Below, in pieces: positions 571 through 63,380 of a DNA stretch of 64,000 bases (position 1 is the first letter of the stretch; every line of letters starts with the position of its first letter). The notes under the pieces are model-generated. The model saw nothing but the letters and a program-made list of their open reading frames with translations, searched no databases and was not told the origin of the DNA. This DNA is from Pseudaquabacterium terrae. Lineage in GTDB: Bacteria; Pseudomonadota; Gammaproteobacteria; Burkholderiales; Burkholderiaceae_C. The position numbers and the translations under genes are program-made. The stretch covers positions 372,001 through 436,000 of the forward strand of contig NZ_JABRWJ010000004.1 in NCBI RefSeq assembly GCF_013266755.1, read 5' to 3'.

Positions 571-587
571 TGGCAAGGCCTGTGCCT
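571..587 (-). promoter_or_regulatory. sigma-54 type -24/-12 element before topoisomerase IB
   Basis: Minus strand reads AGGCACAGGCCTTGCCA, with GG and GC separated by exactly 10 bases. The predicted transcription start (about 561) falls at the ATG at 559, so the transcript would be leaderless. The motif match is strong but the geometry is unusual. Confidence 0.55.
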
Positions 588-728
588 GCCCGCAGCGGGC
601 AGCGCGAACCCCGCGTCGCCGGCGCGCCATCCGGATTCGCCCCGGACTTGCCTTGCGTCACGCCCTGTTGCAGAGTCGGCGCATGCGGCGCAGAACCTTG
701 CGCCGTTCCGCCGCGTGAACGAGGGACC

Positions 729-2210
729 ATGGGCCATGCGCTGATCGTCGATGACGACGCGGATGCCGCGACGATGCTCGCGGCGCTGGTGGCTGACGAG
801 CGCTTTTCGGTCGCCACCGCCCACTCGCTGGCCGAGGCGCGGCGCCAGATCGCCATGCATCCGCCCGACATCGTGCTGCTCGATCTGAAGCTGCCCGACG
901 GCAGCGGCATGGAACTGTTCGACGACCCCCAGCTGACGCAGCGCTCGGAGATCGTGCTGGTCACCGGCCATGCGAGCCTGGAGTCGTCGATCCAGGCGCT
1001 GCGGCTCGGCGCGGCCGATTACCTGATCAAGCCGATCACGCTGAAACACCTGCGTGGCGTGCTGTCGCGGGTGACGCCGCCCGCCAAGCTGCGCGCCGAG
1101 GTCGACGACATGACGGCGGAGCTCGCGGCGACCGGCCATTTCGGCGGCTTGTGGGGTCGATCGGGTGTGATGCGGCGCGTCTACCAGCAGATCTCGCGCG
1201 TTGCCGGCACGGGGGTCACGGTGCTGATCACCGGCGAAAGCGGCACCGGCAAGGAAGTCGTCGCGCAGACGGTGCACGACCTGTCGCGGCGCCGCAAGCG
1301 GCCGTTCCTGGCCGTCAACTGCGGCGCGATCTCGCCCAACCTGATCGAGAGCGAGATCTTCGGCCACGAAAAAGGCAGCTTCACCGGCGCCGACCGCCAG
1401 CACCAGGGCTTCTTCGAGCGCGCCCACGGCGGCACGCTGTTCCTCGACGAGATCACCGAGATGCCGATGGAGCTGCAGGTCAAGCTGCTGCGCGTGCTGG
1501 AAACCGGCACCTACCTGCGCGTGGGCTCGACGACGACGCAGGAGGCCGACGTGCGGGTGATCGCGGCGAGCAACCGGCCGCCGCAGCAGGCGGTGGAGGC
1601 GGGCAAGCTGCGCGAGGACCTCCTGTACCGGCTCAACGTGTTCCCGATCGAGCTGCCGCCGCTGGCGCAGCGCGCGGAGGACATTCCGCTGCTGGCCGAG
1701 CACTTCCTGCAGCAGGTCAGCGAGCGCGAGGGGGAGCACAAGCGCTTCGCGCCGGCGGCGATCACCAAGCTGGTGGCCTACCGCTGGCCGGGCAACGTGC
1801 GCGAGCTGCGCAACGTCGTGCAGCGCGCCTACGTGATGGCCGAGGGCGCGGTGATCGACGACGACTGGCTGCCGAGCAACGGGCCGGGCAACGGCCCGCC
1901 GGTGTTCCGCAGCGCCGCCCCTGCCGACAGCCACACCGGCAGGCCGCCGGTCGAGGAGGCGCTCGCCGCCGAGCCCGGTGCACCGACCCACGCCCACGCG
2001 CCCCCGGCCGACGCGCTGGTGCTGCCGATGGGCACCACGCTCGCCGAGGCCGAGCGCCGGCTGATCCTGGCGACGCTGCGCCACCACCAGCACCACAAGG
2101 AGCGCACCGCGGCCGCGCTCGGCGTCAGCCTGAAGACGCTGTACAACCGCTTGAAGGAATATGCCGCCGACCCGGCGGCCGACGGCGAGGGCGCACCCCC
2201 CCAGGCATAA
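729..2210 (+). CDS. NtrC-family sigma-54-dependent response regulator (copy A)
   Basis: A 493-residue activator with the full NtrC order. The receiver domain is residues 1-120, with the phosphoacceptor Asp in [11 protein letters not shown] and Lys in YLIKPI. The AAA+ domain is about 145-380, with Walker A GESGTGKE, the sigma-54-contacting loop as GSFTGA and Walker B GTLFLDE. The C-terminal Fis-type HTH is [21 protein letters not shown]. The frame is open upstream, but the ATG at 729 begins the receiver fold and follows a purine-rich GAGGGA. No kinase gene is adjacent, so the partner is unknown. The AAA+ half is almost identical in DNA to copy B at 23500-25092, while the receiver and the linker before the HTH differ clearly. 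By family it should activate sigma-54 holoenzyme. Confidence 0.95.
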
Positions 2211-2218
2211 CACTTGCC
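2203..2218 (+). promoter_or_regulatory. sigma-54 type promoter for the SDR gene
   Basis: AGGCATAACACTTGCC, GG at 2204-2205 and GC at 2216-2217, overlaps the last codons of the upstream activator. The predicted start is about 2229, giving a 43-nt leader with a GAGGA Shine-Dalgarno before the ATG at 2272. Confidence 0.7.
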
Positions 2219-2271
2219 GCGTTGACAGGTCATCCCGCGCCGTGAGGGCGCGCCCACGAGGATCGCCTGTC

Positions 2272-3183
2272 ATGACTGCCCCCATCGACACCCCCGAGCG
2301 CACCGCCGACAAGCAGCGCGAGATCCAGGACCGCCAGGAACGCCTTGACGGCGCGGCGCTGCTCGACAAGCCCGGTCGCGAAGCCGAGCTGCAGCCGCAG
2401 CCGCGCTTCGAAGCGCGCGAGTACCGCGGCAGCGACAAGCTCAAGGACCGTGTCGCGGTGATCACCGGCGGCGACTCCGGCATCGGCCGCGCGGTGGCCG
2501 TGCTGTTTGCACGTGAGGGCGCCGACGTCGCCATCGTCTACCTCGAGGAACACGACGACGCCCACGAGACGCAGCGCAGCGTCGAGGCCGAAGGCCGGCG
2601 CTGCATCCTGCTGCCCGGCGACGTCAAGAGCATGGCCTTCTGCCAGCAGGCGGTGGCCAAGACGATCGAGGCGTTCGGCCGGCTCGACGTCCTGGTGAAC
2701 AACGCCGCCTTCCAGGAGCACGCCGAGTCGCTGGTCGAGCTCACCGACGACCGGCTCGACGAGACGATGCGCACCAACGTCTACGGCTACTTCCACATGG
2801 CGCAGGCGGCGCTGCCGCACCTGGGCCCGGGCGCGTCGATCATCAACACCGGCTCGGTGGTCGGGCTGCAGGGCAGCGCGCACCTGCTGGACTATGCGGC
2901 GACCAAGGGCGCGATCCATGCGTTCACGAAGGCGCTGGCGAGCAACCTGATCGAGCGCGGCATCCGTGTCAATGCCGTCGCGCCCGGACCGGTGTGGACG
3001 CCGCTGAACCCGGCCGACAAGCCGGCCGACAGGATCGAGGACTTCGGCAAGAAGACCGACATGAAGCGCGCCGCTCAGCCGGACGAGATCTCGCCGGCCT
3101 ATGTGTTTCTGGCGGCACCGTCGTGCGCCGCGTACATCACCGGCATCGTCCTGCCGATCACCGGCAGCGTCGGCGCCATATGA
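2272..3183 (+). CDS. SDR family oxidoreductase, YghA/general-stress-protein-39 type
   Basis: A 303-residue cytoplasmic NAD(P)-dependent short-chain dehydrogenase. A hydrophilic N-terminal extension of about 55 residues, typical of the stress-induced YghA/YdaD/Gsp39 subgroup, precedes the Rossmann motif TGGDSGIGR. NNAA, the catalytic Ser in NTGSVVG and the active-site YAATK follow in order, and PG near 235 closes the nucleotide fold. The substrate cannot be told. The ATG at 2272 has a GAGGA ribosome site and lies 43 nt after a predicted sigma-54 start. The frame is open further upstream but that part overlaps the preceding gene and has no family similarity. Confidence 0.93.
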   Translation: MTAPIDTPERTADKQREIQDRQERLDGAALLDKPGREAELQPQPRFEAREYRGSDKLKDRVAVITGGDSGIGRAVAVLFAREGADVAIVYLEEHDDAHETQRSVEAEGRRCILLPGDVKSMAFCQQAVAKTIEAFGRLDVLVNNAAFQEHAESLVELTDDRLDETMRTNVYGYFHMAQAALPHLGPGASIINTGSVVGLQGSAHLLDYAATKGAIHAFTKALASNLIERGIRVNAVAPGPVWTPLNPADKPADRIEDFGKKTDMKRAAQPDEISPAYVFLAAPSCAAYITGIVLPITGSVGAI

Positions 3184-3218
3184 GGGCCCGCTGCTCGGCC
3201 CGCTTCCCTTCGATGACG

Positions 3219-62404: not shown

Positions 62405-62450
62405 CGGGACCTCCTGAACTGTGACGGGCGACCACGCCACCCGCACGCGC

Positions 62451-62466
62451 GGCAGGTGACGTGCCT
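62451..62466 (-). promoter_or_regulatory. sigma-54 type promoter for the sugar dehydrogenase
   Basis: Minus strand AGGCACGTCACCTGCC, CTGC in place of TTGC. The predicted start is about 62440, a 36-nt leader with AGGAGG. It lies in the gap after the diheme cytochrome gene. Confidence 0.65.
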
Positions 62467-62480
62467 GCGGACCGGCGCCG

Positions 62481-63329
62481 TCACTGCAGCGTGCCGAGGT
62501 AGGCCACGATGTCGCGCGCATCGGCCTCGCGCAGCTCGAGCGCGGGCATCGTCGTCTGCGCATCGGCATGCCGCGGATCGATGATCCAGCGCAGCATTTC
62601 GTCCGGCGTGTTTGGCCGCCGGCCGGCGATGGTCTGCCGCCGCGCCAGGCCGGCCAGCGGCGGGCCGACGTGCACGTCGGAGCCGGTGACGCCGGGAATG
62701 CGGTGGCAGGCGGTGCAGGCGTGCTGCGTCAGCGCGATGCGGCCGCGCGCCGCATCGGCGCGAAAGCCCTCGGGCAGGCCCTCGCGGCGCGGCGCCGGAC
62801 AGCTGGCAGCGGCGGTATCGGCCAGCGCGGTGAACTCCGCCGCCGTCAGCGCCGGCAGCCGCTGCATGAAGGCCACCAGCGCCCACAGCTCGGCCTCGTC
62901 GAGCCGGTATTGCCAGGCCGGCATGCCGCTCATGCGGATGCCGTTGCGCGTGATCCAGTACAGCTCGGCGGCGTTCCAATGCTGGGGCGCGTCGACCAGC
63001 GGCCCCGGCAGCGGCTGCATGCTGCGGCCGATCGGCGCCTGCGCGCGGCCCGGCGCGCCGTGGCACTGCAGGCAGTGGTCGCGAAAACAGGCGGCACCGC
63101 GCAGCACGCGCGCCGGGTTGTCCAGCGGCGGCACCTCGATCGCCGCAGCGCGGCGCTTGACGCTGCGGTGCATCGTCAGCTCCATCAGCGAATGCACGGC
63201 TTGCGTGTGCGGCACGTTGGCGGCAATGTCGTAGAGGCCGAGCCAGACCACCAGCGCGCCCGCGGCCGTGCCCGCCGCCAGCAGCGTGGCGACGGCGATC
63301 AGCGCGGCAAGCGGGCGGCCGATGCGCAT
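62481..63329 (-). CDS. diheme cytochrome c, membrane-anchored
   Basis: 282 residues. An N-terminal membrane segment ([27 protein letters not shown]) probably anchors it. Two heme c sites are present: CLQCH near residue 87 and CTACH near 205, with Met ligand candidates in the RMSGMPAW and TTMPALEL segments. It carries electrons in the periplasm, likely between the sugar dehydrogenase and the oxidase that starts at 63780. GAGGA before the ATG. Confidence 0.9.
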
Positions 63330-63355
63330 CGTGGGGTGTCCTCATCGGCGTTGCA

Positions 63356-63370
63356 GCAAACAGCCGGCCC
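63356..63370 (-). promoter_or_regulatory. weak sigma-54 type element for the diheme cytochrome
   Basis: Minus strand GGGCCGGCTGTTTGC has GG-N10-GC spacing and TTTGC but a poor -24 box. The predicted start is about 63344 with the GAGGA just inside the leader. Confidence 0.4.
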
Positions 63371-63380
63371 GCCGCTTGCC
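63365..63380 (+). promoter_or_regulatory. sigma-54 type promoter for cytochrome c / oxidase operon
   Basis: CGGCCCGCCGCTTGCC, GG at 63366-63367 and GC at 63378-63379, one change (C for A) in the -24 box. The predicted start is about 63391, a 27-nt leader with AAAGG before the GTG at 63418. Confidence 0.6.

Follow-up and report, generated by a model that had tools for sequence, protein, structure and literature searches.

Sigma-54 (RpoN) is better known for nitrogen use and motility, and its holoenzyme requires an ATPase activator to open a promoter. Specialised paralogues of this factor have been described, and what we say of published systems here and below refers to the accessible parts of the cited papers. 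Rhodobacter (Cereibacter) sphaeroides has four, RpoN1 to RpoN4, with their own activators, and the promoter base at position -11 matters for discrimination (PMC11999139). In Burkholderia pseudomallei, a mutant in rpoN2 (chromosome 2) lost expression of katE, which the wild type expressed at 48-72 h (PMC4745423). Ralstonia solanacearum carries a megaplasmid-borne RpoN2 that is 44% identical to RpoN1 and not interchangeable with it (PMC4371752, PMC4676750), and its deletion gave no metabolic or virulence phenotype (PMC4676750). In the literature surveyed, the second RpoN of Burkholderiales has so far been without a clear job. Here we describe a 64-kb stretch (henceforth the window) of the 8.04-Mb genome of Pseudaquabacterium terrae, whose relatives are Burkholderiales, in which a second sigma-54 gene, rpoN2, lies among about thirty promoter elements of the form GGCAYG-N4-TTGC. 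We propose, with a probability of roughly three in four, that the window is a regulatory island in which RpoN2 and linked activators would run a clustered stress regulon, RpoN2 itself being probably under RpoN1.

The element was searched for either exactly or with at most one mismatch while GG and GC were held fixed. Genes were predicted with a purpose-written gene caller whose training set was the window plus 20 tiles of the P. terrae genome (and which may undercall in relatives), and a site was considered promoter-positioned when it lay outside same-strand genes and at most 110 nt upstream of a called same-strand start; the control for promoter position was 20 tiles (400 kb) of the same genome, including eight 20-kb tiles that flank the window. 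A first-pass annotation, made from the sequence alone, had proposed about thirty sigma-54-type promoters here and suggested comparing their density with composition-matched shuffles and with the rest of the genome. Both comparisons revealed enrichment: with at most one mismatch its pattern matched 39 times in the window (mean of 11.5 and maximum of 22 in 100 dinucleotide shuffles), and of the 90 exact sites in the genome 17 fell in the window, which is 0.8% of the genome and would receive 0.72 under an even spread, and 73 in the remaining 7.98 Mb. Read backwards, the pattern occurs 21 times genome-wide. One further exact site lies 4 kb beyond the window end, before a glyoxalase-like gene, and the eight flanking tiles hold no other. 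With GG and GC fixed and at most one mismatch, 28 of 42 window sites were promoter-positioned, compared with 4 of 65 in the control (one of these four being the site just past the window). These 28 lie -4 to 97 nt from the start (median 42); two of them, at distances of -4 and 4, sit too near the called start, which is probably wrong. A further three sites precede short open reading frames (ORFs) with a Shine-Dalgarno sequence, two of which are conserved in Aquabacterium humicola, bringing the window total to 31 promoters with a weak 32nd at 13214-13228 +. The first-pass estimate was therefore borne out, as were the coordinates and sequences that it gave for the elements, while three of its proposed targets, the MscS gene (50087-50935 -), the second DUF2383 gene (32617-33066 -) and the 62481-63329 cytochrome gene, turned out to have two-mismatch sites only. 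The remaining ten or so window sites match the background (65 in 400 kb of control, i.e., about 10 per 64 kb).

Two genus mates, A. humicola (G003) and Rubrivivax pictus (G008), were available for comparison, and in A. humicola the island is largely syntenic with the window. Among 44 reciprocal-best orthologue pairs, the element was found before both members in 21, only in the window in 2, only in A. humicola in 1 and before neither in 20 (p=5e-9), meaning that 21 of the 23 window orthologues with an element keep the site; at these orthologous promoters the core is kept and the spacer bases diverge. Across 14 genomes reached via RpoN2, promoter-positioned sites numbered 1.53 per 10 kb near rpoN2 (its own promoter included) versus 0.14 near rpoN1 (Wilcoxon p=0.002). 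On the Burkholderia multivorans megaplasmid (L171), rpoN stands beside ku, ligD, CBS, DUF892, trehalose and small stress-type genes, and 16 of 19 sites lie at most 110 nt from the annotated start that they face by manual reading (13 of 19 by the gene caller). The corresponding counts in three other plasmid rpoN regions (L174, L175 and L177) are 1/10, 0/4 and 0/5, and in two of these regions rpoN follows lptB.

The P. terrae genome holds two genes with a Sigma54_DBD domain, rpoN1 and rpoN2, whose products are 41% identical; the first-pass annotation had not listed the second, canonical rpoN elsewhere in the genome or, within the window, a pair of sigma-54 activators and several hybrid kinases. 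All three sigma-54 family domains (AID, core-binding and DNA-binding) were matched in RpoN2 with Pfam. The motifs that contact DNA are altered in RpoN2. The RpoN box has the ARRTVxKYR form in both factors, as ARRTVTKYRQ in RpoN2 and ARRTVAKYRE in RpoN1, and the helix-turn-helix, where its pattern was readable, is HESTVSRVT(N/S)NK in RpoN2 versus HESTISRVTTAK in RpoN1. This pattern was unmatched in four RpoN2 lineages, and Burkholderia RpoN2 has HESTVSRATGNK (part RATGNK) with an RpoN box unchanged from RpoN2. In a midpoint-rooted tree (in which long branches were flagged, L173 among them, and which excludes the R. solanacearum and B. pseudomallei RpoN2), the RpoN2 branch includes the Burkholderia megaplasmid copies and is separate from RpoN1 (99/94). 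All 14 genomes searched via RpoN2 loci have at least two Sigma54_DBD genes; a second rpoN copy was found in 3 of 21 genomes of the genus, and at least two copies in 33 of 300 genomes of an order-wide sample (counted by hand from listings). The R. pictus rpoN2 aligns over its last third only (L048, 6922-7443), and four exact elements persist nearby; the locus is a decaying copy of the rpoN2 system.

The two activators encoded in the window, EBP1 and EBP2, both have the receiver, AAA+ and Fis-type helix-turn-helix domains of the NtrC type. Their GAFTGA-type loop (GxFTGA) reads GSFTGA, a one-residue variant present in all 14 aligned rows (two of them duplicates) and in three plasmid-borne activators. 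We rejected the idea that GSFTGA is unique to island activators, as it occurs in 3 of the 14 readable activators of the genome, two of which are the island's own. Relatives of EBP1 and EBP2 were detected at 58-73% identity in 8 of 18 named loci besides A. humicola (L024-L041), and at 49-59% identity near rpoN in Burkholderia pyrrocinia and on a Comamonadaceae plasmid; among the subset of other P. terrae activators that we recovered, the best long match to the island pair was 41%. Four hybrid histidine kinases in the window are candidate inputs. No element with at most one mismatch precedes either activator gene or any of these kinase genes in the window, and the A. humicola orthologue of one kinase does have an element before it. 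For the kinase at 39358-41949 -, the A. humicola stretch yielded no orthologue by reciprocal best match; a CheB-CheR-PAS fusion adjoining a hybrid kinase (41974-44808) has no match there either.

The window elements depart from the canonical RpoN consensus YTGGCACGrNNNTTGCW (PMC13207237) in that only one of the 17 exact sites has T before GG, and GC is followed by A in one and by C in 16, giving TTGCC. In A. humicola 18 of 19 exact sites also end in TTGCC, the sole other being rpoN2's own promoter. Counting the base after GC (position -11) in related sequences, which are not independent events, we found C 78, A 4 and G 3 at regulon promoters in 15 loci, compared with G 11, A 5, T 1 and C 0 at rpoN2's own promoters in the 17 loci with an element (p=4e-14). 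The regulon count omits L028, L030, L032, L035 and L036 as well as L023, a duplicate of G003; the rpoN2 promoters come from a manual tabulation that leaves out L037 and L038 (no element found), L041 (a remnant) and L042 (an alphaproteobacterium). The first-pass listing of rpoN as a target needs qualification: the gene does have its own sigma-54-type promoter, but this promoter, GGTACG-N4-TTGCAT, is of a different class from the other elements.

Both classes recur outside the window, where 33 of 73 exact sites are promoter-positioned, with C at -11 in 20, G in 10, A in 2 and T in 1. The predicted TTGCC promoters among them precede stress-type genes such as those for BON, DUF4142, MsrB, glutaredoxin, GST, glyoxalase, DksA/TraR and the weak catalase match; in full, the genes are those for a GDSL lipase, a BON/LysM protein, a weak catalase match, DUF4142, a response regulator, a DksA/TraR finger, glutaredoxin, MEDS, DUF2231, GST, a solute-binding protein, glyoxalase, MsrB, a glycosyltransferase and a weak hydrolase match, with no family in 5 of 20 (Pfam matches of several truncated proteins, including this catalase, are below cut-off). 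The non-C class (10 of 13 scanned) precedes genes for LemA, PAS, PilJ, two aldehyde dehydrogenases, cytochrome c, Fer4_20 and EAL proteins, and two with no family. A further split of the outside classes by T before GG or by CAT/CAC gave trends only (p=0.08 and 0.13). The genes behind the matching outside promoters, together with the loss of katE expression in the B. pseudomallei mutant, which is the nearest experimental fact to the proposed regulon (PMC4745423), lend support to the stress role that the first-pass annotation had inferred. Natural knockouts of rpoN2 point the same way as the promoter classes: an element (at most one mismatch, in the expected place) precedes MsrB and BON orthologues in 3 of 4 cases with an intact rpoN2 and in 0 of 22 with none or a remnant (p=0.0015). 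This comparison used 20 of 25 MsrB and 6 of 7 BON matches, weak or second matches being dropped; locus L222 has only 81 nt of upstream sequence, and G001, G017 and G019, counted as being without RpoN2, showed zero Sigma54_DBD of any kind.

One could read these sites instead as sigma-54 promoters shared by RpoN1 and RpoN2, with the C at -11 and the clustering reflecting local history or base composition and with activators alone setting specificity. We consider this unlikely. A C at 78 of 85 regulon sites and at none of 17 rpoN2 promoters argues against it, as do orthologous promoters that keep their core while their spacer bases differ and the consistent changes that RpoN2 shows in its RpoN box and, in the lineages where it was readable, its helix-turn-helix, even though RpoN2 retains all sigma-54 domains and the -11 bases of the B. 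multivorans island are mixed. R. solanacearum speaks to both sides, since its RpoN2 can substitute for RpoN1 in growth on C4-dicarboxylates and the factors are not interchangeable on the other substrates tested (PMC4676750).

The elements also have the fixed GG-N10-GC geometry of sigma-54-dependent promoters. When the spacer of exact sites was varied (k from 0 to 9), k=4 yielded 17 sites in the window (0-1 at any other k) and 19 in the A. humicola stretch (0-2 at any other k), while 380 kb of control tiles (L005 omitted) yielded 0 sites at k=4 and 0-8 at other spacers. GGCA and TGCC form inverted repeats, and a near palindrome (GGCA-N7-TGCC) might suggest the operator of a dimeric regulator rather than a promoter; we rejected this very improbable alternative. 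Non-genic window sites had a start only ahead in 19 cases, only behind in 4, on both sides in 9 and on neither in 2 (16, 4, 11 and 9 in A. humicola). The inner bases YG...TT are moreover asymmetric, and the GG-N10-GC geometry is found next to rpoN and a pair of sigma-54 activators. In GC-rich DNA, chance matches would account for the ten or so window sites at background density but have next to no probability as a general explanation, which the shuffles, genome-wide background, spacer controls and cross-species conservation reject. Enrichment, fixed spacing, direction, conservation in A. humicola, clustering round rpoN2 and not rpoN1 in 14 genomes and the activators in the window all support a dense sigma-54 regulon centred on a local rpoN, as first suggested from the sequence.

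Returning to the regulatory island, its anatomy suggests a chain of control in which stress signals would reach the hybrid kinases, phosphate would pass to EBP1 and EBP2, and the phosphorylated activators would open RpoN2 complexes at TTGCC promoters; the RpoN2 holoenzyme would bind GGCAYG-N4-TTGCC promoters before about thirty transcription units. From the -11 split we infer that housekeeping RpoN1 probably transcribes rpoN2 from its promoter without C at -11, i.e., a sigma-54-on-sigma-54 cascade. Their products, namely topoisomerase IB, Ku and LigD for end joining, catalase, hemerythrin, membrane proteins of the MgtC and DUF421 types and many small proteins, would constitute a stress/survival programme, to which some twenty TTGCC promoters outside the window would also belong.

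Several observations weigh against this proposal. A search for a shared activator-binding motif, using gapped 3+3 and 4+4 words in 28 window and 27 A. humicola promoters versus 293 control regions, turned up no word pair with convincing enrichment, the best z being 4.3. The sites cluster less strongly in B. pyrrocinia, where 8 of 17 lie at most 110 nt from the annotated start faced, and on the Comamonadaceae plasmid (2 of 7), and four loci (L033, L034, L037 and L038) carry rpoN2 yet have 0-1 exact sites in ~21 kb. TTGCC is not a general RpoN2 code, given the mixed -11 bases at the B. multivorans island promoters, and G009, of the same genus and with a single rpoN detected, has 27 TTGCC sites in 5.1 Mb, a density near that of A. 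humicola. In A. humicola the site before MsrB matches poorly (107 nt out, TTGCT) and was scored absent. Finally, RpoS is present in the P. terrae genome.

On a broader scale, we tentatively suggest, at somewhat less than even odds, that a general stress response run by sigma-54 is common to many Burkholderiales: RpoN1 would turn on rpoN2 via a non-C promoter, RpoN2 would read a re-coded promoter (with C at -11 in this lineage) with matching GSFTGA activators, and the regulon would cluster around the sigma gene. In some species this response would operate alongside RpoS, while others would have no RpoS. No RpoS above the curated cut-off was detected in 12 of 15 genomes reached through rpoN2 (one of which has only a remnant). 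Across the 300 genomes of the order, the link between a second rpoN and RpoS was not significant (10 of 33 genomes with at least two rpoN, a hand count, versus 120 of 267; p=0.14), and considering this and the presence of RpoS in P. terrae we rejected RpoN2 as a strict RpoS replacement.

Table 1 Sigma-54-related genes and elements in the window, with what each element precedes.
Feature	Coordinates	Strand	Description
Element	572..586	-	Before DNA topoisomerase IB (2-559 -); kept in A. humicola
EBP1	729..2210	+	Receiver, AAA+ sigma-54 activator domain, Fis-type helix-turn-helix; GSFTGA loop (Pfam, alignment)
Element	2204..2218	+	Before SDR oxidoreductase (2272-3183 +)
Element	3761..3775	-	Before DUF421/YetF protein (3219-3749 -)
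Hybrid histidine kinase	4445..7516	+	Pfam; putative EBP1/EBP2 input
Element	8090..8104	-	Before 108-aa protein (7715-8041 -)
rpoN2 sigma-54-type promoter	8738..8752	+	GGTACG-N4-TTGCAT; -11 = A
rpoN2	8808..10277	+	Second sigma-54 factor; Pfam AID, CBD, DBD domains
Element	13214..13228	+	Before possible 42-aa proline-rich ORF; weak; ORF not found in A. humicola
Element	13258..13272	-	Before MgtC-family protein (12681-13187 -); absent before A. humicola orthologue
Hybrid histidine kinase	20192..22090	-	CHASE8 (Pfam); putative input
Element	22154..22168	+	Before L,D-transpeptidase-like protein (22172-22960 +; Pfam match below cut-off); called start probably too early
Element	23477..23491	-	Before 123-aa ORF with Shine-Dalgarno; ORF not found in A. 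humicola
EBP2	23500..24981	-	EBP1 paralogue (80% identical); GSFTGA loop
Element	25562..25576	-	Before 60-aa ORF, divergent with 25584 element; ORF conserved in A. humicola
Element	25584..25598	+	Before 66-aa protein (25611-25811 +)
Element	26040..26054	-	Before 58-aa ORF, lipoprotein-like start; ORF 81% identical in A. humicola
Element	26137..26151	+	Before hemerythrin gene (to 26689), then PoxB-like TPP enzyme (26729-28546)
Element	28576..28590	+	Before catalase (28632-30455 +)
Element	31841..31855	-	Before response regulator (31340-31804 -)
Element	32412..32426	-	Before DUF2383 protein (31891-32343 -)
Element	33145..33159	+	Before epimerase-DoxX protein (33234-34547 +)
Exact element	34735..34749	-	No convincing downstream gene
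Element	34792..34806	+	Before CinA (34830-35354 +); -11 = A
Element	35391..35405	+	Before glycosyltransferase 9 (35423-36511 +)
Element	36522..36536	+	Before DUF883-like protein (36583-37050 +); Pfam match below cut-off
Element	38556..38570	-	Before glycosyltransferase-like protein (37317-38459 -); Pfam match below cut-off
Element	38598..38612	+	Before 217-aa protein (38642-39295 +)
Hybrid histidine kinase	39358..41949	-	PAS and GAF (Pfam); putative input
Element	45351..45365	-	Before 77-aa protein (45070-45303 -)
Element	45375..45389	+	Before ku (to 46353 +)
Element	49175..49189	-	Before 169-aa gene (48625-49134 -), then ligD (46360-48618 -)
Element	49210..49224	+	Before DJ-1/PfpI protein (49259-49894 +)
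Element	50983..50997	+	Before 90-aa protein (51056-51328 +)
Element	51355..51369	+	Before 176-aa protein (51419-51949 +); -11 = A
Element	51984..51998	+	Before CBS-domain protein (52034-52540 +); -11 = A
Hybrid histidine kinase	53271..55208	+	PAS (Pfam); putative input
Element	61044..61058	-	Before 84-aa protein (60753-61007 -)
Element	62451..62465	-	Before glucose/sorbosone dehydrogenase-like protein (61067-62404 -)
Element	63366..63380	+	Before cytochrome c (63418-63783 +)

Six promoter pairs in the window are divergent, with GG elements 7 to 82 bp apart and at most 27 bp in four of them, the back-to-back pairs at 25562-25598, 38556-38612, 45351-45389 and 49175-49224 (7, 27, 9 and 20 bp, respectively). 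At such close spacing two polymerases could hardly be bound at once, so the paired promoters may compete for polymerase. In the elements at 572-586 - and 3761-3775 -, GC is followed after 12-14 nt by the called start codon in both species, meaning that the mRNA is perhaps leaderless or that the real start is further downstream. The called start of the hemerythrin gene overlaps its element, with an in-frame ATG near 26186, and the element is absent before the A. humicola match. The stretch at 15354-19950, which encodes a RES-Xre toxin-antitoxin pair, a DLH-type hydrolase, an AraC/DJ-1 regulator and a Fic protein, has no reciprocal-best orthologue in the A. humicola stretch, no promoter-positioned element and the lowest GC content of the window; it looks like a later insertion.

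For the second RpoN of Burkholderiales, the island offers a list of candidate targets together with a promoter code, a pair of activators and a proposed hierarchy, as well as many natural promoter pairs for studying how sigma-54 paralogues divide promoters. If our proposal is true, a programme for stress and DNA end joining would come under the control of sigma-54 and, as this factor needs an ATP-driven activator, such a response could be withheld until triggered. The kinds of target resemble those of the RpoS general stress regulon, although RpoS belongs to an unrelated sigma family and is itself encoded in P. terrae. In Burkholderia thailandensis RpoS barely rises in stationary phase, and the authors suggest RpoE and RpoN as possible players (PMC12322963).

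Among sigma-54 systems, the R. sphaeroides set is like the island in its several paralogues with their own activators and in the weight of -11, but it belongs to Alphaproteobacteria, has nif, flagellar and xrpA targets and, in the accessible part of the report, is described with no dense promoter cluster round rpoN (PMC11999139). RpoNp of Bradyrhizobium DOA9 is likewise a plasmid-borne RpoN tied to stress with a shifted consensus; its 22 predicted sites, however, are shifted elsewhere (TGG to CGG, TGC to CGC), and that report, as far as accessible, describes no clustering (PMC13207237). Compared by description, B. pseudomallei RpoN2 is also a second sigma-54, but katE is the sole target shown and the accessible text describes no island, activator or promoter code (PMC4745423); R. 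solanacearum RpoN2, again compared by description, shares with RpoN2 here its standing as a second RpoN, there on a megaplasmid (PMC4371752, PMC4676750). Our literature search, with few subscription papers in reach and others in part, returned specialised RpoN paralogues and no clustered sigma-54 stress island. Specialised sigma-54 paralogues are already known; the clustered, re-coded version is new.

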